Source: Microbacterium allomyrinae (GTDB lineage Bacteria > Actinomycetota > Actinomycetes > Actinomycetales > Microbacteriaceae). From it: DNA of 64,000 nt. The stretch spans positions 124,001-188,000 of the forward strand of contig NZ_JAGTTN010000006.1 of assembly GCF_020682705.1 (NCBI RefSeq), given 5' to 3'. The notes below the pieces were generated by a model that was not told where the DNA came from, did not search any database, and saw only the letters and a program-made list of their open reading frames with translations. The translations under genes were made by a program, and so were the position numbers. Below, piece after piece: positions 6,110 through 41,616 of this stretch (the stretch's first letter is position 1; every line of letters begins with the position of its first letter).

Positions 6110-7774
6110 ATGCCCGCTCCTACCCTCACCCCTGCCGTCGTCCTCGATCGCGTCTCGTTCGCGTGGCCGGACGGCACCACTGCCCTCACAGACGTCTCGG
6201 GCTCGTTCGGCTCCGGCCGCACGGGTCTCGTCGGCCGCAACGGCTCGGGCAAGTCGACGCTCCTCCGGCTCATCGCCGGCGAGCTCGACCCCGCCACCGG
6301 CCACATCGCGAGAACCGCAGATGCGGCGTACCTGCCGCAGCGACTGACCCTCGATGTCGACCGGCCCGTCGCCGACCTGCTCGGCGTGGGCGAGACCCTT
6401 CGGGCGCTCCGCGCCATCGAGTCCGGCGACGCCGATCCCCGCCACTTCGACGCCGTCGGCTCGGACTGGGATGTCGAGGCCCGCTCGCACGTCGCGCTCG
6501 CCGAAGCGGGCCTCGCGCCCGACATGCTCGATCGCCGCGTCGGACAGCTGTCGGGAGGCGAGGCGGTGCTGACCGCGATCGCCGGGATCCGGCTGCGCGA
6601 CGCGCCCATCACGCTGCTCGACGAGCCCACCAACAACCTCGACCGCGAGGCCCGCGCGCGTCTGTACGAGATGGTGCGCGGGTGGCGCGGCGCGCTCGTC
6701 GTCGTCAGTCACGACACCGCTCTGCTGGAACTCGCGGACGACACCGCCGAGCTCTACAGCAGCACGCTGTCGACGTTCGGAGGCCCGTACTCCGAGTGGC
6801 GCGCGTGGCTCGACGCCGAACAGGGCGCCGCGCGCGACGCCGAGAGCGCGGCCAAACAGGTGATGCGGCGCGAGAAGCGCCAGCGCATCGAGGCCGAGAC
6901 GACGATCGCCCGCCGCGCCGCCATGGGCCGCAAAGCCCAGGTCGAGAAGCGCGTGCCCGGGATCATCGCGGGCGGCCGCAAGATGGCCGCGGAGGTCTCG
7001 GCGGGAAAGCTCCGCGGCGAGAAGGCCGACCGCGAGGCATCCGCACGCGCGGCGCTGGATGTCGCCGAGCGTCGCGTCCGCGACGACGACACCGTGAAGA
7101 TCGACCTGCCCGACCCCGGGGTCCCCGCGGGTCGCCGCATCGCGACGCTCGGAGACGGCGAGCGGTCCTGGGTGATCCAAGGGCCAGAGCGCGTGGCGAT
7201 CATCGGCCCGAACGGCGCCGGCAAGACCACGTTGCTGGAGGGGCTGGTCAGGCATGTCGTCCACAACTCCTCCGAATTCGGCGACACGGAGGCCGATCCG
7301 GCCTCTGACACGGGTCGCGAAGGATTTCTGAGGGGTTCGGCGCGCGGGTCGCTGCACACCGACCTCGTCGGGTACCTCCCGCAGCGAGTGGACGGGCTCG
7401 AGGAGTCCGCCTCGGTGCTCGACAACATCGCGTCGGCGGCGCCGCGGGTCAGCACGGTCGAGCTGCGCAATCGGCTCGCGCGGTTCCTCATCCGCGGCGC
7501 CGCCGTCGATCGCCCGGTCGCGACCCTGTCGGGCGGTGAGCGCTTCCGGGTGGCCCTCGCCCGGCTGCTGCTGGCCGACCCGCCGCCGCAGCTGCTCGTC
7601 TTCGACGAGCCGACGAACAACCTCGACCTCGACACGGTCGACCAGCTCGTCGAGGCTCTCGCCGTCTACCGTGGCGCCGTGCTCGTGGTCAGCCACGACG
7701 ATGCGTTCCTGAAGCGCCTCGGGGTCGGCCTCGTCCTCGAGCTCGACCGAGACGGCACGTTGACCGAGCGGTAG
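6110..7774 (+). CDS. ABC-F family ATPase
   Basis: 554 residues with two ABC domains and no membrane segments. Walker A motifs: GRNGSGKST (42-50) and GPNGAGKTT (366-374). Signatures LSGGEAVLTAIAG and LSGGERFRVALAR; both Walker B/D-loops read DEPTNNLD. A basic, helical linker between the domains (QVMRREKRQRIEAETTIARR) is the typical ABC-F interdomain arm. ABC-F proteins bind the ribosomal E site and regulate translation or protect against ribosome-targeting drugs; which applies here is unknown. ATG 6110 follows GGAGG and is preferred over an ATG 11 codons upstream. Confidence 0.93.
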   Translation: MPAPTLTPAVVLDRVSFAWPDGTTALTDVSGSFGSGRTGLVGRNGSGKSTLLRLIAGELDPATGHIARTADAAYLPQRLTLDVDRPVADLLGVGETLRALRAIESGDADPRHFDAVGSDWDVEARSHVALAEAGLAPDMLDRRVGQLSGGEAVLTAIAGIRLRDAPITLLDEPTNNLDREARARLYEMVRGWRGALVVVSHDTALLELADDTAELYSSTLSTFGGPYSEWRAWLDAEQGAARDAESAAKQVMRREKRQRIEAETTIARRAAMGRKAQVEKRVPGIIAGGRKMAAEVSAGKLRGEKADREASARAALDVAERRVRDDDTVKIDLPDPGVPAGRRIATLGDGERSWVIQGPERVAIIGPNGAGKTTLLEGLVRHVVHNSSEFGDTEADPASDTGREGFLRGSARGSLHTDLVGYLPQRVDGLEESASVLDNIASAAPRVSTVELRNRLARFLIRGAAVDRPVATLSGGERFRVALARLLLADPPPQLLVFDEPTNNLDLDTVDQLVEALAVYRGAVLVVSHDDAFLKRLGVGLVLELDRDGTLTER

Positions 7775-7881
7775 CGCGTGGCCGCGGCATCCGCTCCCCT
7801 GTCGAACGGATACCGCGGGCGCGGGGCACCGGGAACATCCGTCACGCCCAGACCTATCGGCGCGGGGACGGATACGGCACC

Positions 7882-8076
7882 ATGGACGCCATGGCCCAGC
7901 TCGTACGTCCTCGCTCCGGTCGCGTCATCGGCGGCGTGTGCGCGGCGATCGCGAATCGCTTCGAGATGAGCGCCACGGTGGTGCGGGTGCTCATGGTCGG
8001 CTCGATCCTGTTCTTCGGCCTGTCGATCGGGCTGTACCTGATCCTGTGGCTGCTGATCCCCCTCGACCGCAGCTGA
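7882..8076 (+). CDS. PspC domain protein
   Basis: 64 residues. The whole protein is one PspC domain: basic N-terminus LVRPRSGRVIGGVCAAIANRF, then a hydrophobic membrane segment (VVRVLMVGSILFFGLSIGLYLILWLLIPL). Such small inner-membrane proteins are linked to envelope stress in other bacteria. A second ATG three codons inside is possible. It is flanked by unrelated genes. Confidence 0.88.
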   Translation: MDAMAQLVRPRSGRVIGGVCAAIANRFEMSATVVRVLMVGSILFFGLSIGLYLILWLLIPLDRS

Positions 8077-8167
8077 CATTCATCGTGCGTCACCCGACGC
8101 CGGGTGTCCGGTCCCGCAGCCGCCGCCCCGCAGCCCCGATGTCGGCGCGGGCGACGAAGATGGAGTG

Positions 8168-13099
<4,932 letters not shown>

Positions 13100-29732: not shown

Positions 29733-30059
29733 GCCGTGCGCGCGAAACCGGGGATTCCTCGCGAAACCGAGGACGACGCCCCTTGGCTCGGCGAGAATCC
29801 CTTGGCTCGACGCGAATCGCCCGGCGTGTGTGCGCGCCGGGTCTGCGCGCGCCGCTTGCGCGCGCCGTGCGCGCGAAACCGGGGATTCCTCGCGAAACCG
29901 AGGACGACGCCCCTTGGCTCGGCGAGAATCCCTTGGCTCGACGCGAATCTCCTGGCTCGACGCAAATCCCCGACGCGCACCGCGTGCGCGCGAAACCGGG
30001 GATTCCTCGCGAGACGGAGGACGACGCCCCCGGGCTCGGCGAGAATCCCTTGGCTCGGC
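29733..30059. repeat. Three-copy array of degenerate palindromic repeats (family B)
   Basis: Two copies of an 86-base unit (29733-29818 and 29864-29949) are identical in every base; a third, diverged copy runs from about 29981 to 30059. Each unit contains GGGGATTC...GAATCCC arms and a CGAAACCGAGG...GGCTCG inner part, resembling the palindrome at 49419. No gene is credible here despite open frames. Confidence 0.8.
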
Positions 30060-30219
30060 GCAAACCCCGGGCTCGGCGCAAACCCCGGGACTCGGCGCAA
30101 ACCCCGGACTCGGCGCAAACCCCGGGACTCGGCGCGAACCCCGGACTCGGCGCAAACCCCGGGGCTCGACGCAAACCCCGAGGCTCGACGCGAACCCCGG
30201 ACTCGGCGAGAACCCCCGG
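30052..30219. repeat. Nine tandem 18-19 base units
   Basis: Units follow GRCTCGRCGCRAACCCCG, directly after the family B array. The units resemble one arm of the family B palindrome. The array ends about 40 bases before the nuclease gene and abuts its promoter. Confidence 0.85.
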
Positions 30220-31300: not shown

Positions 31301-32062
31301 ATGAGCAAGGGCGGCAGTTCGCGAGGACGCACGGGCAAGCCGCGACGGGATGCCTCGGCCACGCGCTCCGGCGGTGCCAAGAAGTCAGGCGCCAAGCCCG
31401 CCCGCGCGCAGCGGCCCACGCCGCGCCCCTCCCCCGGTCCGTCACCGGTCGCCGAGTCCGTCGAGGTTCCCCAGGCGTTCACACTCGGTGCGATCCCAGG
31501 AGCCACGCCCGGGAAGTGGATCGACGTGTGGAAGGAGCGGATGCCGCTCACCGCGCTGGAGCTCATCCCCCTGTCGTTCGCCGAACAGCGCCGCGCGCTC
31601 GTCGACGGCGACGTCGAAGCCGCACTCGTGCGCCTGCCGATCGATGCCGAGGAACTGCACGTCATCCCGCTCTACGACGAGGTGCCCGTCGTCGTGACCT
31701 CGACCGAGTCGCACCTGACCGCGGCCGACGATCTCGCGCTGTCCGACCTTGCCGGCGAGGTCGTGATCGTGCCGCAGGACGACGTTCTCGGGCTGACGGT
31801 GCCCGGCGGGGTCGCGGCATCCTTCGCCCCTCCCGCCGACACCGGCGAGGCCGTCGCCATCGTCGCCGCCGGGGTCGGCGTCGTCATCGTGCCGATGTCT
31901 CTCGCGCGTCTGCATCACCGCAAGGACGCCGAGTACCGCGTGCTCCGCGACGCTCCGGTGTCGACCGTTGCCCTCGCCTGGGTGGCCGAGCGGACCACGC
32001 CGTCGGTCGAGGCCTTCGTCGGCATCGTGCGCGGACGCACCGCGAACTCTTCGCGCGGCTGA
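31301..32062 (+). CDS. LysR-type substrate-binding domain protein lacking an HTH
   Basis: 253 residues. The first 50 are basic and S/P/A-rich (GRTGKPRRDASATR...), not a winged helix. Residues 60-250 look like the periplasmic-binding-like effector domain of LysR regulators (WKERMPLTALELIPLSFAEQRRALVDGDVEAALVRLP, then IPLYDEVPVVVTSTESHLTAADDL, VAIVAAGVGVVIVPMSLARLHH). It starts 7 nt after TACGCT, so probably leaderless. Its last 25 codons are duplicated at 33805-33880. Could be a ligand-sensing partner or a degenerate regulator. Confidence 0.75.
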   Translation: MSKGGSSRGRTGKPRRDASATRSGGAKKSGAKPARAQRPTPRPSPGPSPVAESVEVPQAFTLGAIPGATPGKWIDVWKERMPLTALELIPLSFAEQRRALVDGDVEAALVRLPIDAEELHVIPLYDEVPVVVTSTESHLTAADDLALSDLAGEVVIVPQDDVLGLTVPGGVAASFAPPADTGEAVAIVAAGVGVVIVPMSLARLHHRKDAEYRVLRDAPVSTVALAWVAERTTPSVEAFVGIVRGRTANSSRG

Positions 32063-32087
32063 TCGCGTCCGTTCACCGGGAACGGAT

Positions 32088-32260
32088 GCAGGGGATGTCG
32101 CCGACCTGGGCCCCTGCGACATCCCCCGTGGATCCGGCTCCGGAGATCTGCGCGTCAAGGACGCGTCCCCATTTCGATCTCCTGCCCCCAGTATCCGAAG
32201 CCCCCCAGCTCGGACTGCAGGAGCCGTTCCACAATGAGGGAGCGTGGCGAAGGGGCGGTG
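32088..32260 (-). repeat. Duplicated intergenic element R, copy 1
   Basis: About 170 bases that closely match 35131-35310. It opens with an inverted repeat GGGGATGTCGC (32091-32101) / GCGACATCCCC (32116-32126) that can alternatively pair as GCAGGGG/CCCCTGC. A second small hairpin CGCGTC-AAG-GACGCG follows. On the minus strand it holds a 25-codon GTG frame (32232-32155) containing GYWGQEIE. Function unknown: structured RNA, regulator or small ORF. Confidence 0.7.
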
Positions 32261-32329
32261 ATACACGTGTGGCCAGTGAGCCGCTGAAGAAGGGCGCCCT
32301 ATCCGGGACGCCCTTCCGATGCACCGAGG

Positions 32330-32578
32330 TCAGTTGGTCATGCCGTGCGGGTTGATGGCGGACCCGTTGCCCGTGAACGGGTTCGTGATCGATCCGTTCG
32401 TCTTGGAGTGCGGGTTGATGACGTCGTTCGTGGAGCCGTACGGGTTCACGACCGACCCGTTCGACTGTCCGAACGGGTTCGTCACCGACCCTCCCGGTGC
32501 CGCCGTAGCGACCGCAGGAGCGCTGAGCAGCGCGATGACAGCGGCCGACGCCAGGCCGAGAGTGATCTGCTTCTTCAT
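32330..32578 (-). CDS. Small secreted protein with NP[FYH] repeats
   Basis: 82 residues. A clean Sec signal peptide (MKKQITLGLASAAVIALLSAP) ends near VATAA. The mature 55 or so residues are five tandem 10-11 residue units: TNPFGQSNGS, VNPYGSTND, INPHSKTNGS, TNPFTGNGS, INPHGMTN. There is no cysteine or enzyme motif. TAGCGT (32635-32630) may be its own -10, and a GGCGCC-loop-GGCGCC hairpin lies in the leader. The TNPF words match the repeats in the S8 protease of the same strand. It may be a signal, a surface-binding peptide or a protease substrate; none is proven. Confidence 0.75.
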   Translation of the reverse strand: MKKQITLGLASAAVIALLSAPAVATAAPGGSVTNPFGQSNGSVVNPYGSTNDVINPHSKTNGSITNPFTGNGSAINPHGMTN

Positions 32579-32677
32579 TGAGCGTGGTCCAATCTTCGGG
32601 GGAAAGGCGCCGGGGCGGCGCCGGGCTACACGCTAGCGCCCGCCTCGCCCACAGCGGAAGGCCTGATCTCCGGTGTC

Positions 32678-33883
32678 TCAGAAGCCTGCGCCGTGCACCT
32701 GGAACGGCGCGACGATTCCGGTGCGCTCGGATGCCGCGGCCAGCGCCTCGGATGGCGAGACACCCGCAGCGAGTCCTGCGTGCATCGCACCCAGCAGCTC
32801 GCAGGCATCGTCGTCGGCCACGACCACCGGCGTTGCGACCACGCATCGCGCGCCCGCATGAAGCCAGATTCGTGTCATGCCCACGGCTTCCTCGCCCCAG
32901 CGCACCGAGGAACGACCCACCTTGCAGGCGGAGAGAACGACTGTGTCCGGGAGCGTCGGGATGAGATCGATGTCGTAGCCGAACAGCGTCCCGTCGGAGA
33001 GTTCGAGACCAGAGAACAACGGGTTGTCGATCGCGTGGCGCCCGTGCGCCGCGACGTGGAGCACGTCGGCGCGCGACGCCATCACCGTGACCCGCTCAAC
33101 TGTCGCAGCATCGGCGGTGACCGCTGTGGATCTCGTCCAAGCAGCGACAGCGGTCTCGATCTCCTCCTCGGCACGGGTGACGCGTGGGCCTGCGGCGAAT
33201 GCGGCCATGTCGTGCGCAAAGGGACCCCGCCGGCGCATCCGCTCCCACCGGGTCGCCGATACGGCGACGGTGAACGCCCTTCCGGCCATGCCGGGGAGCA
33301 TCGCCCACGGAATGCCGTTCAGGATGCCGGGGGCAGTGATGACGAGCCTGTCCGCGTCCGCGACGCCGGCGGGCCCGTCCAGCACCGAGCGCGACAGGGA
33401 CGCGAGACGGTCACTCAGCGAACGCGCAACGACCCCGGCCACAGGCCCCGTCCGCATGGTAGCCGCCATGTCGAGGTCCGCGCGCAGGCCGGGAAGGGAG
33501 TGCGCCACGGCGGCCCAATCGCCGAGTGCCACCAGCTGCGCCCGGTCATGGCGGACGACGACCGCGGCGAGCGCATCACCGGTGAACACATACGCGATGA
33601 GGGCTGTCCTCGCATCGAGCTCGGCGCGCACCGTATCGATATCGATGCGCGCCTGCACTCCGCGCGATCCGGTGCCGCTCCATTGGCGCTCGCGCGCCCG
33701 ATCGCGCAGACGCTCGGCCTCGGCCGATGCCTGCCATGCTCCGGACGGGTCGTCTGCGCGCATCATCCGCAACTGCGCGAGATCGGAGGCGAGCTCCTCG
33801 TCGGGCAGACGACGCCTTCGGTCGACGCGTTCGTCGGCGTCGTGCGCGGACGCACTGCGAACTCGTCGCGCGCCTGACCGCAC
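32678..33883 (-). CDS. Truncated CHAT-domain protease paralogue
   Basis: Up to 401 residues. From about residue 26 it aligns with the C-terminal half of the full CHAT protein at 35331, through to the identical end IVAPFQVHGAGF. The catalytic dyad is intact: HVAAHGRH and LSACKVG. The TPR-like N-terminal half is missing. The first 25 codons read antisense across the duplicated tail of the LysR-like gene, so the true start may be an internal ATG (33766 or 33763). Coding looks undamaged, which suggests that it is still in use or only recently freed from selection. Confidence 0.7.
   Translation of the reverse strand: MRSGARRVRSASAHDADERVDRRRRLPDEELASDLAQLRMMRADDPSGAWQASAEAERLRDRARERQWSGTGSRGVQARIDIDTVRAELDARTALIAYVFTGDALAAVVVRHDRAQLVALGDWAAVAHSLPGLRADLDMAATMRTGPVAGVVARSLSDRLASLSRSVLDGPAGVADADRLVITAPGILNGIPWAMLPGMAGRAFTVAVSATRWERMRRRGPFAHDMAAFAAGPRVTRAEEEIETAVAAWTRSTAVTADAATVERVTVMASRADVLHVAAHGRHAIDNPLFSGLELSDGTLFGYDIDLIPTLPDTVVLSACKVGRSSVRWGEEAVGMTRIWLHAGARCVVATPVVVADDDACELLGAMHAGLAAGVSPSEALAAASERTGIVAPFQVHGAGF
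33805..33880 (+). pseudogene. Fossil 3' end of the LysR-like gene
   Basis: Bases 33805-33880 repeat the last 75 bases of the gene ending at 32062 (about 85% by eye), coding TTPSVDAFVGVVRGRTANSS before a stop. No upstream part of the gene remains. It marks the breakpoint where the truncated CHAT gene begins. Confidence 0.75.
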
Positions 33884-33898
33884 TGCGTTCCGCGGCCG

Positions 33899-35038
33899 CT
33901 ACGGCTCCTCGGTGGGATCGGGCGACGGGCTCGGAGTCGGTTCCGTCTGCGAGAGCTCGGAGAGCGCCTCGTGGAACGCGGTGACGGTCGCGGCGTCCAC
34001 CGTGCCCGTGGGCGGAACGTCCAGCTCGGTCTGGAACGCGATCACGGCCTCGGTCAACGCCGGTGTCCACACGCCATCGACCGGACCGTCCCAGAACCCT
34101 GCGAGCTTCAGTGTCTGCTGGATCGCGGCCGTCGTCGCCACCGACTCCTGAGCGGCAGCCCCGCCCAGCGCCGCCAATTCGGCCTGCAGGGCTGCGGCGG
34201 TGGCTTTGTCGACCGCGCCCGTGACCGGCAGCCCGTTCGCGGTCTGGAGGTCTTCGACCGCCCCGACCGTCTCCGGTCCGTAGACGCCGTCGATAGCGCC
34301 TGCGTAGTACCCCGCATCAGCGAGATCCTGCTGGAGCGCGGTCGAATACGCGCTGACTGCCGCTGCGGCTTGCTGCGCCTGCTCGTCGGGCACGCACCCG
34401 GCATCGACGAACAAGCGCAGCCACGCCATCTCGAGTGCGACGGCGGCGCTGTTGAACTGCTCGGATGCCGCGGCCAGCGGCGTCTGGTCGGTGATGGCGC
34501 CCTGCGCCGCCGTGAACTCCGCCTCGGCCTGCGTGACGCGGTCGACCGTCGCCGTCGGCACCGCAGGCGCGGTGGTCGCCGATGCGGTGTCAGGTTCGCT
34601 GGGCGCGGCCGACGCGCCGGCCTCTGCCTCCGCCTCGGCGAGCGCCACGCGGGCTTCCGCGAGCTCCTGCTCCGCCGCGGCGACATCCTCCTGGGCGGCG
34701 ACCGCGGCCTCAGCATCGGTGAAGGCATCCTCGCGCGGCTCGGTGAGGTCGGCGCCGGCATCCCTGACATCGCCGACCGTGGGTGCCGTGGCGTTCAGCA
34801 CGTCGCCGTACTGATCGAGTGCCCCGATGTAGGTCTCGCTCGCCTGGCAGAAGGCCTCCGACGCCGCAATCGATTCAGCCTGGGCGTCCGCCGCGGCTTT
34901 CTCTTTCACACTCACCTGGGCCTGTGCCCGCTCGACGCTGCTGACGCCGTCCGCGCAGCCGGCAAGCCCGGCTGCGGCGAGCGCAAGCAACAGGACCGCT
35001 CCCGCCCGTGTTGCGCCGGTCGATCTCGCTGTTCTCAT
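33899..35038 (-). CDS. Lipoprotein with two peptidoglycan-binding domains
   Basis: 379 residues. Lipobox LAAAGLAGC at the N-terminus, a long alanine/glutamate-rich coiled region, then two PG_binding_1 repeats: LQQDLADAGYYAGAIDGVYGPETVGAVEDLQ and IQQTLKLAGFWDGPVDGVWTPALTEAVIAFQ, each about 60 residues. A P/S/T tail ends the protein. It should sit on the outer face of the membrane and touch the wall. The start is the ATG at 35038; longer frames upstream run through element R and are not supported. It lies between the two CHAT genes on the same strand. Confidence 0.88.
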   Translation of the reverse strand: MRTARSTGATRAGAVLLLALAAAGLAGCADGVSSVERAQAQVSVKEKAAADAQAESIAASEAFCQASETYIGALDQYGDVLNATAPTVGDVRDAGADLTEPREDAFTDAEAAVAAQEDVAAAEQELAEARVALAEAEAEAGASAAPSEPDTASATTAPAVPTATVDRVTQAEAEFTAAQGAITDQTPLAAASEQFNSAAVALEMAWLRLFVDAGCVPDEQAQQAAAAVSAYSTALQQDLADAGYYAGAIDGVYGPETVGAVEDLQTANGLPVTGAVDKATAAALQAELAALGGAAAQESVATTAAIQQTLKLAGFWDGPVDGVWTPALTEAVIAFQTELDVPPTGTVDAATVTAFHEALSELSQTEPTPSPSPDPTEEP

Positions 35039-35130
35039 GTGGGGACCCTCCGTTGCCGAGGTTATCGGCCACGGCCGCGCAGTCGTCATCCACATCGGGT
35101 GATCCCTCGGACGTGATGCGGGGGGCGTGA

Positions 35131-35310
35131 TGCGGGGGATGTCGCCGACCTGGGTCTCTGCGACATCCCCCGTGGATCCGGCTCCCGGAGATCTACGCGT
35201 CACCGACGCGTCCCCGTTTCGATCTCCTGCCCCCAGTATCCGAAAGCCCCCCGGCCTCGGACTGCAGGAGCCGTTCCATCGTGAGGGAGCGTGGGGTGGG
35301 TGCGCTGATA
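35131..35310 (-). repeat. Duplicated intergenic element R, copy 2
   Basis: Copy 2 of the element at 32088, roughly 90% identical by eye. Its first hairpin is CGGGGGATGTCGC (35133-35145) / GCGACATCCCCCG (35160-35172), 13 pairs; the second is CGCGTC-ACC-GACGCG, with the stem kept and the loop changed. The short frame found in copy 1 starts here with ATG but is shifted by two extra bases. It lies between the CHAT stop and the lipoprotein start and fills most of the 292-base gap. Confidence 0.7.
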
Positions 35311-35330
35311 CATGCGCCGGGGAGAAGTTT

Positions 35331-37838
35331 TCAGAACCCTGCCCCGTGCACCTGGAACGGCGCGACGATGCCGGTGCGCTCGGATGCCGCAGCCAGCGCC
35401 TCGGAGGGCGAGACACCGGCGGCAAGGCCCTCGTGCATGACACTCAGCAACTCGCACGCGTCGTCATCGGCAACGGCGACCGGCGCGGCGACGACGCTGC
35501 GTACGCCCGCATGGAGCCACACGCGTGTCATCCCAATTGCCTCCTCGCCCCATCGGATCGACGATCGCCCGACTTCGCAGGCCGAGAGGACGACCGCGTC
35601 CGGCATGTCGCGAATGAGGTCGATGTCGTATCCGAACAACGTGCCGTCGGCCAGCTCGAGGCCGGAGAACATCGGGTTGTCGGCGGCATGCCGACCGTGC
35701 GCAGCGACGTGGAGGACGTTCACTCTGGAGGCGATCTCCGTCAGCCGCCGCGCAGACGCGCCGGCACCGTGCTCGACGACAGGAGCACACCACGGCGCTG
35801 ATGCGCGCGCGAGCTCCTCGACGCCGCGCGCGACGCGGGGCCCAGCCACGAATCCTGCGCGAGTGGGCGTTGGTCGCGGAGTCCGCGCGAACCTGGCCCA
35901 CCGTGTCGCCGACACAGCCAGCGTGAATGGTCGCTCCCGGAGGCCGGGAAGCATTCCCCACGGAACCTCCCGCAGAATCCCCGGCACCGTGAGGATGACG
36001 CGTTCCGCGCCGGCGACTCGAAGCGGTTCGGCGATCAGAAGTTCGGCCAGCACCGCGAGCCGCTCATCGAGCGAGCGACGGACCACATCCGCGATCGGGC
36101 TGTTCCGAATCGTCGCGGACATGTCCAGATCCGAACGGAGCCCGGCGAGTGCGCGGCGCACTTCGCCCACGGGCGGGAGCGGCACCACCGTCGCACCGTT
36201 TGGCCTGATGACCACTGAGGAGAGCACCGCGCCAGTGAACACGAACGCGATGAGCGTGGCATCGTGCGGCAGCGTGGCCTGGAATTCCTCGAGATCGATG
36301 CGCTGCTCGACGGCGGCCGCGCCGGTCGATGACCACTGCCGCTGGCGCACTCGCTCGCGCAGAGCGGCGGTCCGCGGCTCTGACAGCCAGTCCTCCGATG
36401 CCGCCTCGGTGCGCAGCGCGCGCAGCTCTGCGACATCCTGGGCAACGCTGGGATCCGGCGGCGGGCGAAGCGGCACAACCTGCTGACTCAGGTGCCTGGC
36501 GCGCTCCGACCACGCGAAGATCACGTCGGCACGGCCGGATCGCACGGCGGATTCGATCCCTGAGTAGACGAGCGACCCCCCGTGCATCTGGATCGCGGAT
36601 TGCAGGTCGATGCTTCCCGATTCCTGCCAAGACGCGAGCGTGTCGAGTCCGGTCGCAAGTTGCCGGCGAGCCGTCGCGTGACGCCCGGCGGCGGTCGCTC
36701 GTGCAGCCCGAACCTCTTCGTCGAGCAGCCGGAGCTCGAGCGGCGCGGACCGCGGCACCCGCGTACGAGGTGCCAGCGTCGATCCGTCTCGTACCTGCGC
36801 GAGCTCAAAGGTCAGTCGTAGCGCGGCCGCCTCCATCCGGAACCCTCTCGTGGTGAGGCGCTCTGCCACGTCCTCGATTTCCGCGGCGCCTGCCCAGCGT
36901 CGTCGTCCAGGCTCCACGACCTGCCCTGAACTTCGACCGTGGTCCAGGAGCGCCCGCAACCGGAGGGCTTCGGCGCGGACTTCCCACGTCTCATTCCCGA
37001 GCCGAGCGAAGGTCCTGCTCGATCGCCCGGCCATCTTCGCGGACTCCGAGGCCGAGTGCGCCAGCAGCGAGCGCGCCAGCTGGAATCTGGCCTCCCCACT
37101 GGCGTGAGGCATGTGTCGACGCCCGAACGTGGTCGCCGCGTGCGCAAGAAGGGCTTCTGCTTCGGTCACGAGCCCGGCGTCGCGCAGCACCTGGGCGCGA
37201 TCCACATCGCAGATCGCCGCAGCGACCTCTGACGCGCTCGCAAGGGTCGCGCGCGCGTCGAGCATCTCGCGGAGTGCGGTGACCAGGTCGCCCCTCAGGA
37301 GGGCGATGTAGCCGAGATTGTGCTTGGCCTGCGCTTCGTCGAAGTCCATGTTGCGCAGTGCGTACACCCGCGCTGCCGCCTCGGCGTCCGCAGCGGCCGA
37401 CGCCAGTCGGCGCAGGTGCATGTTCACGACGCTCCGATTGACAAACATGCGCGCGGCGACGAGTGAATCGGCTTCCACCGAGCGGATCGCGCGTCCGAGC
37501 ATCTCTCGGGCTTCGTCGAGGCGTCCGCCATGCTCGGCGAGCGCACCGAGCTGGCCGTAGAGGATCGCGAGCGTCTCCCGAGAGATGCCCCCGCGTCCCA
37601 GCGTCTCCCGGCAGAGTGCCTCTGCACCCGTTGCGTCGCCCATCTGCGACATGACGAACGCCGTGGTCCCGGCGATGCGCGCGCCGAGGTCGGGGGCGTC
37701 CGAACGGAGTGCAGCGTCCTGGAGAAGTCGCAGAGCTTGCGGATACCGGCGACGGTTGGCTGCATCGACGCCGCGTCGATGCAGCGCCTGCGCCGAGGTG
37801 GTCACGGGATCATCTTGGCGTAACCCGCGGCCGCGCAC
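35331..37838 (-). CDS. TPR-CHAT domain protease
   Basis: 835 residues from the GTG at 37838; a GTG 11 codons later (TTSAQALHRRG) may be the true start. Residues 15-430 are helical repeats of TPR type (RRGVDAANRRRYPQALRLLQDA; GQLGALAEHGGRLDEAREMLGRAI; HNLGYIALLRGDLVTALREMLDA). The C-terminal CHAT domain has the His near 713 (HVAAHGRH) and Cys 754 (LSACEVG), the dyad of caspase-like proteases. No signal peptide. It is 15 bases after the S8 protease gene. CHAT proteases act in programmed proteolysis, as in gasdermin or Craspase systems; the target here is unknown. Confidence 0.9.
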   Translation of the reverse strand: MRGRGLRQDDPVTTSAQALHRRGVDAANRRRYPQALRLLQDAALRSDAPDLGARIAGTTAFVMSQMGDATGAEALCRETLGRGGISRETLAILYGQLGALAEHGGRLDEAREMLGRAIRSVEADSLVAARMFVNRSVVNMHLRRLASAAADAEAAARVYALRNMDFDEAQAKHNLGYIALLRGDLVTALREMLDARATLASASEVAAAICDVDRAQVLRDAGLVTEAEALLAHAATTFGRRHMPHASGEARFQLARSLLAHSASESAKMAGRSSRTFARLGNETWEVRAEALRLRALLDHGRSSGQVVEPGRRRWAGAAEIEDVAERLTTRGFRMEAAALRLTFELAQVRDGSTLAPRTRVPRSAPLELRLLDEEVRAARATAAGRHATARRQLATGLDTLASWQESGSIDLQSAIQMHGGSLVYSGIESAVRSGRADVIFAWSERARHLSQQVVPLRPPPDPSVAQDVAELRALRTEAASEDWLSEPRTAALRERVRQRQWSSTGAAAVEQRIDLEEFQATLPHDATLIAFVFTGAVLSSVVIRPNGATVVPLPPVGEVRRALAGLRSDLDMSATIRNSPIADVVRRSLDERLAVLAELLIAEPLRVAGAERVILTVPGILREVPWGMLPGLRERPFTLAVSATRWARFARTPRPTPTRAGFVAGPRVARGVEELARASAPWCAPVVEHGAGASARRLTEIASRVNVLHVAAHGRHAADNPMFSGLELADGTLFGYDIDLIRDMPDAVVLSACEVGRSSIRWGEEAIGMTRVWLHAGVRSVVAAPVAVADDDACELLSVMHEGLAAGVSPSEALAAASERTGIVAPFQVHGAGF

Positions 37839-37853
37839 GCCACGGGATGCGGA

Positions 37854-39542
37854 TCATCCAGGCAGAATCGTCTTCTTGAGGTCTCCCTTAATCTCCGTGT
37901 AGGCGTCGTTCAACGCCTTCGCCCGACTCACGGCGTCGTCCGCGGCGGTGCCGTCCATGAGCGCCTTCCCGACTGCCGCGGCAAGCTTCCCCGCTACGAG
38001 CGGCGCAGCGAACGAAGTGCCGCTCCACACCGCGAAGCCGGTGGCGAAGTCGTCCGGATCCAGCGACTCCCGCCGCACACCATCGCGGTCGAGGCGCGAC
38101 CCCGGCTGCATCCCGCCGCGAAATTTCGGCGACGCGCTGAGCACGGACACGCCACGGGCGAACGTATCTACCCATCGCCCGACATTGCTGAAAAGCGCTA
38201 CGGATCCGTTCGGGTTCAGTGCACCGACAGACACATGCGGCGCGCCCTTGGCCTCGGCGGGCTGCTTCACCGAGAACTCGGCATCTTTCCAGGTCCACAG
38301 GGCTGCGGGGAACGCGGGTCTCGACGTCGAGTCGTTGCCCGCCGAGCACACGACAGCGCAGCCGAGTTCCCGGATCTGCACGAGCAACTCGTTCAGAGTC
38401 AGATCGAACTGGCCGTCGTCCGGAGTCTCGTGGTAGTAGCCGAGCGAGATGTTCAGGACATCCACCGTCAGCCCACCCTTGAGTGCATCGAGAAGCGCCT
38501 GCACCGCATCGATGAAATCGCCCTCGAGCACTGTGCCCATGCTGTCGGCCACTCGGATCGGCAGCAGCACAACGTCGGGACAGGCCTGCAGGACGATACC
38601 TGCCACAAACGTCCCGTGCCCCGCCGCCCCGTCGAGAAATCCGTCGAGTGGGCCCGCGACGTCGCCGACGAGCTCCGGGTCGGCATCGGCGCCAATAACA
38701 CCGAGGATTGGCTGCGCCGCGATGACGCCGCCCACGAACCAATCGTGGTCGCGCCAGCAGCCGGTGTCGAGAAAGGCGACCACCGGTCGCCTTCCGACGA
38801 TCTCGTCATCTTCGAGTCGATTCGGAGCAGCGCCGACAAAGTCGACGACCTGACGGCCGCCGCTGCCCGGCAGGCCGTATGTGCCGGGTCCGTACGGGTT
38901 GGTCTGCGTGAACGGGTTGGTCTGTGTGAACGGGTTCGTCTGCGTGAACGGGTTCGTCTGCGTGAACGGGTTCGTCTGCGTGAAGGGGCCAAGCGCCATG
39001 ACGTGGTCCAGACCGATACCGCGCAGGGTCTCCGCCTCCTTGACGAGGTCGGCCCCGGTGGCACCTCGCCGGCGCGGCGCCCGTACGGTCGCATCAGGTT
39101 CGACAGGCTGCTCCATGCCGAGGACGAGCGCGCGCGTGCGTTGGAGGAGACGCCATGCGTCGATTGGCGGCACCGGCTGGTCGTCGCGTCCGGGGACCGG
39201 GTCAGGGCTTATCCGCACCCGACGCACGAGCGGCGCGTCGGGCTGCGCCCGCGCCACGCCCAGGGATCGACTCGCCGTTGCGGCATCCTGATCGGACGGA
39301 GCCGTATCGACCTCGACCTTCCACCCGAAGTCACCTGCCGCGACCGCGAGGTTCGTCACCGCTTCCGCGGCGCGCTCCGTGTCAGTCAGTAGCAGATGGC
39401 CCGGAGCGTATGCGGTGGGGTACGGGGTGAAGGTGTCGACCGGCTCCACCGCCGGATCGAGCACGACCCCCCTGGGACGGAATGCGTCGAAACGGGAGCG
39501 CCAGTCATCGCCCCCACCGCCACCGGTCACGACGTTGCTCAT
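37854..39542 (-). CDS. Cytoplasmic S8 (subtilisin-like) protease with NPFTQT repeats
   Basis: 562 residues without a signal peptide. The triad is complete: Asp259 (VVAFLDTGC), His309 (AAGHGTFVAG), Ser510 (SGTSFAAPLVAG), with the oxyanion Asn in VVCSAGND. Residues about 185-218 are five TNPFTQ units and a TNPYGPG end, between a helical N-terminal region and the catalytic domain, where a prodomain linker would be. The repeat may be a cleavage or docking linker. Follows the small unknown gene by 55 bases and precedes CHAT by 15. Confidence 0.92.
   Translation of the reverse strand: MSNVVTGGGGGDDWRSRFDAFRPRGVVLDPAVEPVDTFTPYPTAYAPGHLLLTDTERAAEAVTNLAVAAGDFGWKVEVDTAPSDQDAATASRSLGVARAQPDAPLVRRVRISPDPVPGRDDQPVPPIDAWRLLQRTRALVLGMEQPVEPDATVRAPRRRGATGADLVKEAETLRGIGLDHVMALGPFTQTNPFTQTNPFTQTNPFTQTNPFTQTNPYGPGTYGLPGSGGRQVVDFVGAAPNRLEDDEIVGRRPVVAFLDTGCWRDHDWFVGGVIAAQPILGVIGADADPELVGDVAGPLDGFLDGAAGHGTFVAGIVLQACPDVVLLPIRVADSMGTVLEGDFIDAVQALLDALKGGLTVDVLNISLGYYHETPDDGQFDLTLNELLVQIRELGCAVVCSAGNDSTSRPAFPAALWTWKDAEFSVKQPAEAKGAPHVSVGALNPNGSVALFSNVGRWVDTFARGVSVLSASPKFRGGMQPGSRLDRDGVRRESLDPDDFATGFAVWSGTSFAAPLVAGKLAAAVGKALMDGTAADDAVSRAKALNDAYTEIKGDLKKTILPG
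38890..38990 (-). repeat. 18-base tandem repeats coding for NPFTQT
   Basis: Five near-exact 18-base units read as TNPFTQ on the minus strand; three are almost identical, suggesting recent expansion by slippage. Confidence 0.92.
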
Positions 39543-39597
39543 GTCTTCTCCTCACACACAGCGGATGCCGGGCCCCCAGGCCTCGGCATCCGGATCC

Positions 39598-40065
39598 TTA
39601 CACTTCGAACTGCGGGGTCTGGAAGTCGCGGAGATCGCCCGAGGCATCGCGCACGACGAGGCGGAGCTGCGCCATTCCGGGTGTCACCTCGTCGAAGGCG
39701 AACCGTCCGTGCTCGCCGGCATCGGCGGTCCAGTCACGCTCACCCTGCACCAGACGGATCGCCAGGGCGGAGCCATCCACCCATCCGTCGACGCGGCGGC
39801 CGCCGTCCTCGGTGGCGGTCACGTGCAGAAGCACGCTGGTGGTGCCGTCGCTGAACTGCAGCGTCGCGGTGTCGGTCTCGCCGCGCACGGCGGCCAGCGT
39901 CCCGTCGACGAGCGTCAGCAGCGCGTACTCGCGGGAGAGATCCTCGACCGCGACGGCGGCGACCATCCGGTCGACGAGGTCGGCCGGCACCGGATCGATG
40001 TCCTCCCACATTCGGCGCATTCGTGCGAAGAGCGCGGCATCGGCCGCGAAGTCCTCAGTCTCCAT
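39598..40065 (-). CDS. Small unknown protein next to the sigma factor
   Basis: 155 residues, not recognised by name. The N-terminal 60 residues are helical (ALFARMRRMWEDIDPVPADLVDRMVAAVAVEDL); the rest is beta-rich (LLTLVDGTLAAVRGETDTATLQFSDG..., HGRFAFDEVTPGMAQLRLVVRD), like an Ig or carboxypeptidase-regulatory-type sandwich. Its start overlaps the sigma factor end by 11 bases, so the two are made together. An anti-sigma or sensor role fits the place but is inference. No membrane segment. Confidence 0.7.
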   Translation of the reverse strand: METEDFAADAALFARMRRMWEDIDPVPADLVDRMVAAVAVEDLSREYALLTLVDGTLAAVRGETDTATLQFSDGTTSVLLHVTATEDGGRRVDGWVDGSALAIRLVQGERDWTADAGEHGRFAFDEVTPGMAQLRLVVRDASGDLRDFQTPQFEV

Positions 40066-40786
40066 CGGGATCTCCTCCCCATCCGTCGCCCTCTAGAACG
40101 GCGCGGAGTTTGGCGAGACAGCGCTGGCGGGTCGGTCCGATCGATCCGATGGGCATCGCAAGGTCGGCGGCGATGCGTGCATAATCGGGGCGGTCCTCGA
40201 ACGCGACGATCCGCAGCAGGCGCTGGCATCGGTCGTTGAGAGTCTCGACCGCGACCCATAGACGACGGGACTCGTCGTCGGTGGCAGCGGTCTGCTCGGC
40301 GGATTCGTGGACCGGAAGATGGGGCTCGAGCGCTTCGGCCTCGGTCGGGTCGGCTCGGCGATGCTGCTTGCCGACCCGCCACGCCTCTCGCCGTGCGCAC
40401 ATCGTGAGCCATCCCGACACCGCCTGGGGGTCGAGGATCGTCTCATGACGGCGCACGAGCGTCAGCCACGTCGTCTGCACGACGTCCTGCGCGAGCGAGT
40501 GGTCGAGGCCGTACGACCTCACGACATGCCAGAGTGTCGGCGTCATGAGTCGGACGAGTTCGTCCATCGCGCGACTCTCGCCTTCGCGCCAGCGCAGGAA
40601 GAGCGCAGCCGCGCGCTGCCATCGCGCCGGCTCCGCGGAGTCGACGGTCCCCGCTGCCTCCCCACGCGCCGCTGACGCGTCGCGCGGATCCTCGGGCGGC
40701 GGGGGCCCAGACTCAGCGCTCGCGTGCGTCATAGCGCCCATTGTGTCCACACCATGCCAGAGAGCGATAGTGCGGGTTTGATACAT
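40055..40786 (-). CDS. Sigma-70 family (ECF-like) RNA polymerase sigma factor
   Basis: Up to 243 residues; inner starts at 40741 and 40732 are as likely. Region 2: RAMDELVRLMTPTLWHVVRSYGLDHSLAQDVVQTTWLTLVRR; region 4: LNDRCQRLLRIVAFEDRPDYARIAADLAMPIGSIGPTRQRCLAKLRAVL. The long low-complexity N-terminus (PPPEDPRDASAARGE) is unusual. It heads the minus-strand row of the small unknown, S8 protease and CHAT genes, so it probably controls their expression. Confidence 0.9.
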   Translation of the reverse strand: MYQTRTIALWHGVDTMGAMTHASAESGPPPPEDPRDASAARGEAAGTVDSAEPARWQRAAALFLRWREGESRAMDELVRLMTPTLWHVVRSYGLDHSLAQDVVQTTWLTLVRRHETILDPQAVSGWLTMCARREAWRVGKQHRRADPTEAEALEPHLPVHESAEQTAATDDESRRLWVAVETLNDRCQRLLRIVAFEDRPDYARIAADLAMPIGSIGPTRQRCLAKLRAVLEGDGWGGDPDGD

Positions 40787-40866
40787 CTTCGCCGCGACGA
40801 TTCCCGCGTATCGGTCGATGACTCCCGGCTCGCGGCGCGCCGAGTCGCCGACTTAGAATTCTCCCC

Positions 40867-41616
40867 ATGACGACCGCGCCGCTGCTCTATGTCTGCGTTC
40901 GCCCGCAGCAGGGCGCGGCTGCCGCTGAGTACGAGTCGTTCCGCTCCGCCATGCGCATCGACGAGGGCCGCCTGGCACGACACGATCTGGTGCGCGAACC
41001 GCTCCCCGCCGACGCGTTCGAGCGCTACAGCGGCTTTCTCATCGGCGGCAGTCCCTTCAACCTGACCGACCCCGAGTCGACCAAGACCGACGCCCAGCGC
41101 CGCCTCGAATCAGACCTCGAACGGATCGCGGCGCACGCCGCACGAGGCGAGGGACCCCCGGCGCTGTTCACCTGCTACGGCATCGGCGTGGTCACCCGCC
41201 TGCTCGGAGGCCGCGTCAGCCGCGCTTTTCCGGAAGACACCGGCCCCGTCGCCGTCGAGCTGACCCCCGAAGCCGCTGCGGATCCTCTCTTCGGCGGACT
41301 CGCGAACCGGTTCACCGCCCTCACCGCGCACAAGGAGGGGACCGAGTCCCTGCCCTCGGGCGCGACCCTGCTCGCCGTCAACGACGCGTGCCCCGTGCAG
41401 GCGTATGTGGTCGGCGACCACCTGTACGCGACGCAGTTCCACCCCGAGCCCACGGCACGGGCCTTCACCGAGCGCATGGCCGTCTACCGCGACGACGGGT
41501 ACTTCGAGGCGAGCGCCTACGACGAGATCGCCGCGAAGGTGCTCGCGGCGTCGATCACCGAGCCCGCACGCCTGCTCCGCGCCTTCGCGCGGCACTTCGA
41601 GCCGGCTGAGGGCTGA
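40867..41616 (+). CDS. Class I glutamine amidotransferase-like protein
   Basis: 249 residues. Cys103 (LFTCYGIGV) and His192 (QFHPEPT), with the following Glu, form the GATase triad. It resembles GMP-synthase-like stand-alone amidotransferases. No synthase partner is nearby. TAGAAT (40854-40859) is 7 nt before the ATG, a very good leaderless promoter. Confidence 0.88.
   Translation: MTTAPLLYVCVRPQQGAAAAEYESFRSAMRIDEGRLARHDLVREPLPADAFERYSGFLIGGSPFNLTDPESTKTDAQRRLESDLERIAAHAARGEGPPALFTCYGIGVVTRLLGGRVSRAFPEDTGPVAVELTPEAAADPLFGGLANRFTALTAHKEGTESLPSGATLLAVNDACPVQAYVVGDHLYATQFHPEPTARAFTERMAVYRDDGYFEASAYDEIAAKVLAASITEPARLLRAFARHFEPAEG

Follow-up and report, generated by a model that had tools for sequence, protein, structure and literature searches.

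A conserved cassette of a sigma factor, a small protein and two proteases in Microbacterium, with an allele-specific peptide array kept by selection at the subtilisin pro/mature junction

The window analysed here is a stretch of 64,000 nt from Microbacterium allomyrinae (GCF_020682705.1, NZ_JAGTTN010000006.1:124,001-188,000; G000:C15:124001-188000 in our numbering of genomes, contigs and, below, loci), taken from a G+C-rich genome of 4.0 Mb, and all positions refer to this window. Its minus strand holds seven open reading frames (ORFs) between 32330 and 40786, and the first four form the cassette with which this report is concerned. They encode an ECF-type sigma factor (40055..40786), a small protein of 155 amino acids (aa; 39598..40065), an S8 (subtilisin) protease (P0003, 37854..39542) and a TPR-CHAT protease (CHAT1, 35331..37838). 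The genes of the sigma factor and the 155-aa protein overlap at 40055-40065, and intergenic gaps of 55 nt and 15 nt separate the 155-aa gene from the S8 gene and the S8 gene from CHAT1. A promoter-like motif, TGTATCA-N16-CTC, lies before the sigma gene (40760..40785, minus strand), and the same motif followed by a structured RNA lies after CHAT1 (35129..35312, minus strand). Between the prodomain and the catalytic domain of the S8 protease there is a tandem array of five PFTQTN units (residues 186-215; 38898..38987, minus strand). The sigma ORF as annotated begins at 40786 and so includes the promoter-like motif (40760-40785); translation probably starts farther in, at M16 (about 40741) or M19.

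The sigma factor scored above the cut-off in both PF04542 and TIGR02937. The latter match reached 55.8 bits (cut-off 42.9) over residues 73-229, and Pfam gave region 2 only. As a short sigma-70 protein with regions 2 and 4, it belongs with the ECF sigma factors. CHAT1 (84.1 bits) and a second, downstream CHAT protein, CHAT2 (90.7 bits), are both members of the CHAT family by PF12770 (cut-off 24), and the TPR part of CHAT1 gave a weak TPR_12 match of 20.1 bits, under the cut-off of 30.1. The catalytic residues, identified by eye, were D259, H309 and S510 in the S8 protease (PF00082), H714 and C754 in CHAT1, and H280 and C320 in CHAT2. The His and Cys columns of CHAT were kept in all 62 aligned loci (L041, L070 and L089 were excluded as broken or cut), and the S8 triad motifs were present in 64 of 65 S8 proteins, the exception being L089 with its broken frames. 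No signal peptide was visible in the S8 or CHAT proteins on inspection by eye only. The initial annotation had described the seven minus-strand genes with their close spacing, the complete catalytic residues, the lack of signal peptides and the NPFTQT repeats, and all of these held; of its TPR-CHAT label, the CHAT half was firm and the TPR half weak. The S8 protein scored 62.9 bits against the model of type VII secretion system mycosins, far under the cut-off of 278.75. Its catalytic part also matched a PHROG family annotated as 'protease' at 98.9 bits.

The four genes travel together. Of 198 genomes searched within the genus, 109 had a relative of the S8 protease at E 1e-15 or better, and we examined 60 of these neighbourhoods, which comprised nearly all of the best S8 matches and a choice of weaker ones. 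The sigma factor, the 155-aa protein, the S8 protease and TPR-CHAT were matched in 60/60, with the CHAT gene cut by a contig end in L070. The order was sigma-small-S8-CHAT in 57 of the 60 and sigma-small-CHAT-S8 in the remaining three (L074, L078 and L089); inserts or gaps within the cassette were seen in L041, L062 and L090. Among the S8-negative genomes tested, CHAT was also absent in 14 of 15. Farther afield, S8 relatives occurred in 7 of 296 genomes of the phylum (5 outside the genus) and in 6 of 150 of the family (4 outside the genus), and the nine loci from these nine outside genomes each held all four parts, in varied order. The scan of genome contigs with back-translated patterns gave no S8 relatives. 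The site was mostly fixed, with a LysR-type gene in 51 of 61 stretches and a glutamine amidotransferase gene in 48 of 61.

The conservation of neighbourhoods had been named beforehand as the test that could overturn the seven-gene module of the initial annotation. Co-travel held for the first four genes and failed for the last three: the lipoprotein gene had no match in the 60 other loci, and the secreted peptide gene lay away from the cassette elsewhere. The seven-gene module was accordingly rejected, and the lipoprotein, CHAT2 and the peptide are local extras and not members of the cassette.

Several loci showed individual peculiarities. In L089, the frames of the sigma factor, S8 and CHAT were all broken, by assembly quality or decay. 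In L041, S8 and CHAT were separated by a gene on the other strand (6721-8751, minus strand) whose product has a cell-wall anchor motif (PF00746). In L037 (4533-7831), two consecutive S8 genes preceded one CHAT gene, with array units of the NPFTRT and NPFGKT types. In G032 (L162:5823-9783), the cassette had neither S8 nor the LysR and amidotransferase flanks, and the motif occurred on both strands right after CHAT.

Every S8 protein that we read carried 3-9 near-identical units of 5-7 residues at the pro/mature junction, such as NPFTQT, NPYGST, NPHGRT, NPFKG and NPFGTKT. Arrays were present in 65/65 S8 proteins, with 305 units in total; those of L034 and L156 were placed by hand. Between units, the synonymous difference (pS) was 0.505 and the nonsynonymous difference (pN) 0.015, a pN/pS ratio of 0.03. 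In 55 of the 65 the array was perfect in protein, and none of those 55 was identical in DNA. All 53 further S8 reads had arrays as well, two of them recognized by eye, in a set that included 3 repeats of S8 proteins read elsewhere and 13 from a search favouring NP units. Six distant S8 proteins kept the array site with unlike units (HPFWGG, HPFWVG, GYGDGV, NPAYQG, GPFTSG and HPMYDG). The array repeats are thus kept by selection on the protein while the DNA copies diverge, and since both the cassette and the array are conserved across loci, chance is ruled out for both.

These figures bear directly on the simplest account of the array, namely a passive spacer grown by slippage in which unit identity reflects recent duplication. 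Short tandem repeats often vary in number, as the copy number of 3-9 does here. However, a pS of 0.505 against a pN of 0.015 between copies is contrary to this account, as is the finding that distant families, despite their unlike units, have an array in the corresponding position. The array was rejected as a slippage product, with synonymous sites far diverged and the protein nearly identical; we consider the passive spacer very improbable and largely refuted. Even on the dullest reading, the S8 array offers a clear instance of protein-level selection on near-identical repeats.

The predicted structure places the array in a meaningful position. The AlphaFold model of the S8 protease had a mean predicted local distance difference test score (pLDDT) of 76.3 and a predicted template modelling score (pTM) of 0.83, with pLDDT under 50 at residues 192-236, so that the array is of low confidence. 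Residues 47-562 of the model aligned to unautoprocessed pro-Tk-subtilisin with Z 23.6 and a root-mean-square deviation of 4.1 over 297 aligned residues. With the catalytic D-H-S and an I9-like prodomain fold, the model has the features of an S8 zymogen. By this zymogen-like alignment, the array sits where pro-subtilisins self-process. Most units give rise to a series of Pro-Phe, Pro-Tyr or Pro-His pairs, the first of which is a classic P2-P1 preference of subtilisin (suc-AAPF-pNA). On these grounds, the array may be what the S8 active site itself reads.

The S8 protease, the array and the TPR part vary together as alleles, even where the sigma factors are close. The distance tests used 62 of the 65 loci (1891 pairs), leaving out L041, L070 and L089 with their broken or cut genes. 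Sigma factors were at least 90% identical in 43 pairs. In 7 of these the S8 catalytic domains were at least 85% identical, and the unit was identical in 7/7. In the other 36 the catalytic domains were below 85%, and the unit was identical in only 5 of 36; S8 identity was 45-50% in 20 of these pairs, 50-75% in 15 and 80-85% in one. L076 and L048 illustrate the pattern: the flanks were 94 and 89% identical, the sigma factors 99% and the small proteins 96%, whereas the S8 proteins were 52% and the TPR parts 47% identical, with the units PHGMTN and PVGGKTN. Over all 1891 pairs, unit identity fell with S8 identity, from 10/10 pairs at 85% or more to 22/50 at 70-85%, 18/215 at 60-70% and 6/1616 below 60%.

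In pairwise distances, the sigma factor and the small protein correlated at 0.88, the CHAT domain and the small protein at 0.63, S8 and TPR at 0.61, and S8 and sigma at 0.21. The whole CHAT domain followed the small protein and the sigma factor at r 0.58-0.63 and its C-terminal part at 0.63-0.75, with the last 80 residues reaching 0.75 for both. Linkage alone fails to explain this, because CHAT usually lies farthest from sigma. Either a swapping of the middle part between ends that are conserved or a functional coupling would account for the correlation. Unit distance was tied most closely to that of the catalytic domain of S8 (partial r 0.24, p 0.002; p 0.004 in a second test). For the prodomain, which also flanks the array, the partial correlation was 0.065 (p 0.09), and for the CHAT domain the raw correlation was 0.15 and the partial -0.02 (p 0.66). 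The second test found nothing significant for the other domains that it covered.

These correlations also concern a reading in which the units are cleavage sites for CHAT, so that a sensor TPR-CHAT would free an executioner S8 in a caspase-like manner. The two proteases are neighbours in 60/60 loci, the array has low confidence in the model and is probably flexible, and a known TPR-CHAT protease cuts a flexible loop of its partner, as far as the available text of that study describes (PMC10028731). However, unit identity did not track the CHAT catalytic domain, as the values above show, and one cut would suffice, which leaves the identical copies unexplained. We regard this reading as rather unlikely. 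The initial annotation had raised the possibility that one of the proteases activates its neighbour or some partner. This is possible, and the distances fit an action of S8 on TPR and of CHAT on the 155-aa protein better than CHAT cutting the array.

The replacement of alleles might instead reflect phage pressure on a phage-defence or abortive-infection switch, in which the S8-TPR alleles diversify and the array serves as bait or anti-inhibitor. CHAT and S8 enzymes are common in defence, the cassette is patchily present (109/198 genomes), and its alleles are replaced while sigma stays close. The S8 protease also gave weak IetS-type matches. These reached 17.3 bits against a cut-off of 900, with a best PADLOC IetS match of 24.5 bits, which places the protein outside IetAS defence, and PADLOC gave no match for the sigma factor, the 155-aa protein or CHAT. 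A bait array would gain from mixed units, yet the units are kept identical, and the mostly fixed chromosomal site described above is unlike that of mobile defence islands. On balance, a defence function seems improbable.

The promoter-like motif stands at both ends of the cassette in the genus. TGTATCA/TGATACA occurred upstream of sigma in 57 of 65 loci and no more than 350 bp downstream of CHAT in 50 of 65, compared with a rate of 3.6% in random 310-bp pieces. In the 65 loci (1.0 Mb), TGTATCA-N16-CTC gave 100 same-strand and 3 opposite-strand matches, and the spacing of 16 dominated. By position, about 44 of the same-strand matches lay at sigma and 53 after CHAT, and the complete motif followed CHAT in about 53 of the 65 loci. 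Automatic sorting had placed 33 upstream of sigma and 52 after CHAT, with 15 labelled 'elsewhere'; of these 15, 11 lay at the sigma start, one after the broken CHAT of L041, one at RNA copy 2 of the window (see below) and two elsewhere. The genome of M. allomyrinae held 6 matches; 3 of them fell in this locus, and the 3 elsewhere were close in number to the 2 of the control. Beyond the genus, L145, L146, L147, L153, L155 and L156 had one full match each, on the strand opposite to the cassette, and the full motif was absent in L144, L148 and L154. It was also absent in the four peptide loci L157-L160. The proposal of the initial annotation that the sigma factor drives the module is therefore favoured within the genus, where the motif stands before sigma and after CHAT, and not by the outside loci, where it lies on the opposite strand or is missing.

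Two of the outside arrangements deserve description. In L145, a divergent Nal1/trypsin-like gene (9956-11374, plus strand; under Pfam cut-offs) lies behind TGTATCA-N16-CTC, and its product may be a third protease belonging to a remote form of the regulon. L155 and L156 both have the motif near sigma on the opposite strand, and behind it comes a short ORF that is alike in the two (HPPLP..PGGLPELI...DG.IYPA), perhaps encoding a small product of the regulon.

Downstream of CHAT, the motif leads into a body of about 110 nt and then a hairpin, with a stem of at least 8 in 42 of 51 cases. In the window, copy 1 is predicted to form a three-way junction with a terminator-like hairpin. Five RNAs folded at z -3.2 to -6.2. 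Folding of the body alone was weaker (median z -1.9; 19 of 40 below -2) and gave the outer stem in 30 of 40. From the MAFFT alignment, RNAalifold recovered chiefly the terminator hairpin. The outer stem was named from single folds and then counted on that alignment, and so leans to its source sequences; in this count, 76% of the cells were paired and 6 of 9 pairs had changes on both sides. For the named outer stem plus hairpin, 12 of 21 pairs had changes on both sides, and covariation was 0.251 against 0.146 in shuffled alignments (0/500 shuffles). On one of the five measures, that for further pair types, 43 of 500 shuffles did at least as well. Rfam gave two sub-threshold matches in the window at 31800-41300 up to E 0.5, neither of them on the element, and no match at threshold in L031, L043, L045 or L082. 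A tiny conserved ORF after CHAT was considered and rejected, as the reading frames were not conserved and a structured RNA fits better. The structured RNA appears to belong to the regulon.

The 155-aa protein was also modelled. AlphaFold predicted a two-helix N-terminus, a flexible linker and a beta-sandwich (pLDDT 81.8, pTM 0.56), with residues 48-64 below 50. The protein matched no family in Pfam, NCBIfam, PADLOC or PHROGs, and no solved chain at E 0.1 or better. The structural matches did not cover its helical part, and the absence of fold matches is not counted as evidence. It is a candidate anti-sigma partner and a putative CHAT substrate.

We read the cassette as a polymorphic protease-gated sigma switch, in which a self-reading S8 zymogen and TPR-CHAT would gate the sigma factor through a putative anti-sigma protein, and we give this reading a probability of about one in three. 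The S8 zymogen would carry its own substrate or inhibitory tail several times over, and a trigger would set it cutting through these copies. The TPR part of CHAT might sense this event as freed S8, freed units or a clustered array. The CHAT domain would then cut the sigma-holding 155-aa protein in its flexible linker, and the freed sigma factor would amplify the operon and make the structured RNA. Cutting of a sigma inhibitor by a TPR-CHAT protease has a precedent in Csx29 and Csx30 (PMC10028731). Allelic variation of the unit would keep the switch of each species private. Candidate triggers are phage, a non-self peptide and stress. The proposal builds on what was observed computationally: the make-up and joint occurrence of the cassette, selection on the repeats, the pattern of alleles, the promoter-like motif and the RNA. 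Its order of events, its anti-sigma protein and its reader of the array are putative.

A number of observations weigh against this switch. The 155-aa protein resembled no known anti-sigma factor in the family and structure searches, and its anti-sigma role is suggested by gene order and overlap together with co-variation. The S8 protease is not strictly required, as G032 has the sigma factor, the small protein and CHAT with no adjacent S8 and none found genome-wide. In the structural comparison, zymogens (Z 23.4-23.6) and mature subtilisins (Z about 22.6, over roughly residues 236-562) were tied within Z 1 or nearly so. The units PVGGKT and GYGDGV lack the Pro-aromatic pattern, and PFGASL lacks Asn. 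The allele jump is not all-or-none, with S8 identity of 50-75% in 15 of the 43 close-sigma pairs. The correlation of unit and S8 is modest, and both lie in one gene; that of TPR and unit is weak with the other domains controlled (partial 0.07, p 0.08; second test p 0.16). The column association scan gave mixed residues, and the substrate-pocket columns were not cleanly enriched. Finally, the motif outside the genus was never found before sigma in the cassette direction.

The array motif recurs in a secreted peptide. In the window, an 82-aa peptide (P0007; 32330..32578, minus strand) has a Sec-type N-terminus, judged by eye, and five different units of the NPxxxTN type. Its family occurred in 5 of 366 genomes of the genus (G000, G049, G100, G101 and G129), all of which have the S8 protease. 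In the latter four the peptide gene lay away from the cassette, on other contigs in two and over 300 kb off in two, and these four genes share a common gene neighbourhood. The NPF/NPY/NPH motif of the peptide is that of the S8 array, as indicated by the peptide profile search, in which 21 of the 25 other matches listed were S8 arrays. Of 12 distinct peptide units, 8 equalled S8 units of other species. For six-residue units, 7 of 11 matched those of other species against 4.3-4.8 expected, which is borderline (p 0.057 and 0.065). The S8 unit of the maker was absent from its own peptide in 5/5, an absence expected for rare units. The four peptides from genomes with another S8 allele all carry PHGMTN. 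In G129, whose S8 unit is NPHGMT, the peptide lacks PHGMTN and has PHGRTN where three of those four have PHGMTN, a single case.

One interpretation of this pattern is that the units are private keys. Each S8-TPR allele would answer its own unit, and the secreted peptide would carry the keys of other species and omit that of its maker, triggering or jamming the switches of neighbours in an allele-specific signalling or antagonism between species through intracellular proteases. We hold this to be quite doubtful. A second interpretation concerns a multi-copy peptide messenger, with S8 freeing 3-9 short peptides that the TPR part of CHAT binds in a Rap-like manner and the secreted peptide serving as a further tandem propeptide of this sort. 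In the length of its units and their arrangement in tandem, the array is similar to the tandem propeptides of pheromones for TPR receptors, so far as the accessible part of that report goes (PMC11343458). The S8-TPR correlation of 0.61 and the Sec-type start and several variant units of the peptide family are also in line with a messenger. In contrast, export is unexplained for an S8 protease with no signal peptide visible by eye, the TPR-unit partial correlation is weak, and the secreted peptide occurs in so few genomes. A messenger is unlikely, though very slightly less so than CHAT cutting the array or a defence function.

The remaining features of the window suggest something of its history. 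A lipoprotein gene (33899..35038, minus strand) encodes two PG_binding_1 stretches (PF01471) and a lipobox recognized by eye. CHAT2 (32678..33883, minus strand) is a truncated CHAT without the TPR part by sequence comparison. It is 59% identical to CHAT1, with identical last residues, and at best 60-65% identical to the CHAT proteins of other species. A recent tandem duplication was rejected on these figures, since CHAT2 is no closer to CHAT1 than to other species' CHATs. Directly beside its 5' side lies an 80-bp stretch that duplicates the 3' end of the LysR-type gene (33802..33881, plus strand, against 31987-32066; 86% identical and in the same orientation by self-BLAST). The structured element follows both CHAT genes in the window, and copy 2 with its promoter-like motif (32082..32265, minus strand; fold z -3.75) is 89.7% identical to copy 1 over 184 columns. 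From these sequence relationships, CHAT2 is probably the remnant of a displaced allele and the LysR copy (33802..33881) the joint of an allele insertion. A newer S8-CHAT allele may have been inserted beside the old CHAT tail, with the peptide and the lipoprotein as cargo. We also noted a direct repeat of 116 columns, 85% identical, at 30028-30216, close to the LysR-type gene.

If the protease-gated sigma switch is true, bacteria would run a polymorphic intracellular recognition system of two proteases and a sigma factor. The array unit would be a specificity tag readable straight from genomes, making specificity testable, and the cassette would represent a CRISPR-free relative of the CHAT/inhibitor/sigma logic as well as a new kind of zymogen junction.

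In our judgement the combination is new: the protein families are all familiar, but none of the known systems tested fits. No description of the cassette, array or alleles was found in literature titles and the starts of abstracts, a scope that leaves subscription papers and preprints outside. One of the closest likenesses is to CASP/Craspase of type III-E CRISPR (Csx29, Csx30 and CASP-sigma), in which the TPR-CHAT protease Csx29 cuts the sigma inhibitor Csx30 according to the available part of the source (PMC10028731). Both loci combine TPR-CHAT with a sigma factor and a partner protein; the present cassette has in addition an S8 zymogen with an allele-specific array, a polymorphic locus and a partner that matches no solved chain. 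The RAMP effector of Craspase (PF03787) was not found in the one genome searched, that of M. allomyrinae, while a control search was positive in 4 of 14. A study of Death/TRADD-N domains describes, in the text available, an ECF sigma factor, a TPR protein and a caspase-type protease in one neighbourhood (PMC8195603); those EACC2/caspase/ECF-sigma neighbourhoods have trypsin-like peptidases and EACC2/TRADD-N parts, and the word 'subtilisin' occurs 0 times in that text. In the RRNPPA family (Rap3T-Phr3T and relatives), TPR proteins work with short peptides whose propeptides hold several identical or variant copies, by the available portion of the account (PMC11343458). Here, the array lies within a protease in which no signal peptide is visible, the protein with the TPR part is itself a CHAT protease, and peptide binding is hypothetical. 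With pro-subtilisins (pro-Tk-subtilisin and pro-subtilisin E), the modelled S8 protease shares the alignment of prodomain and catalytic domain over residues 47-562. It differs from them in the hypervariable array of 3-9 copies at the junction, in being encoded with a sigma factor and TPR-CHAT, and in being cytoplasmic by appearance.

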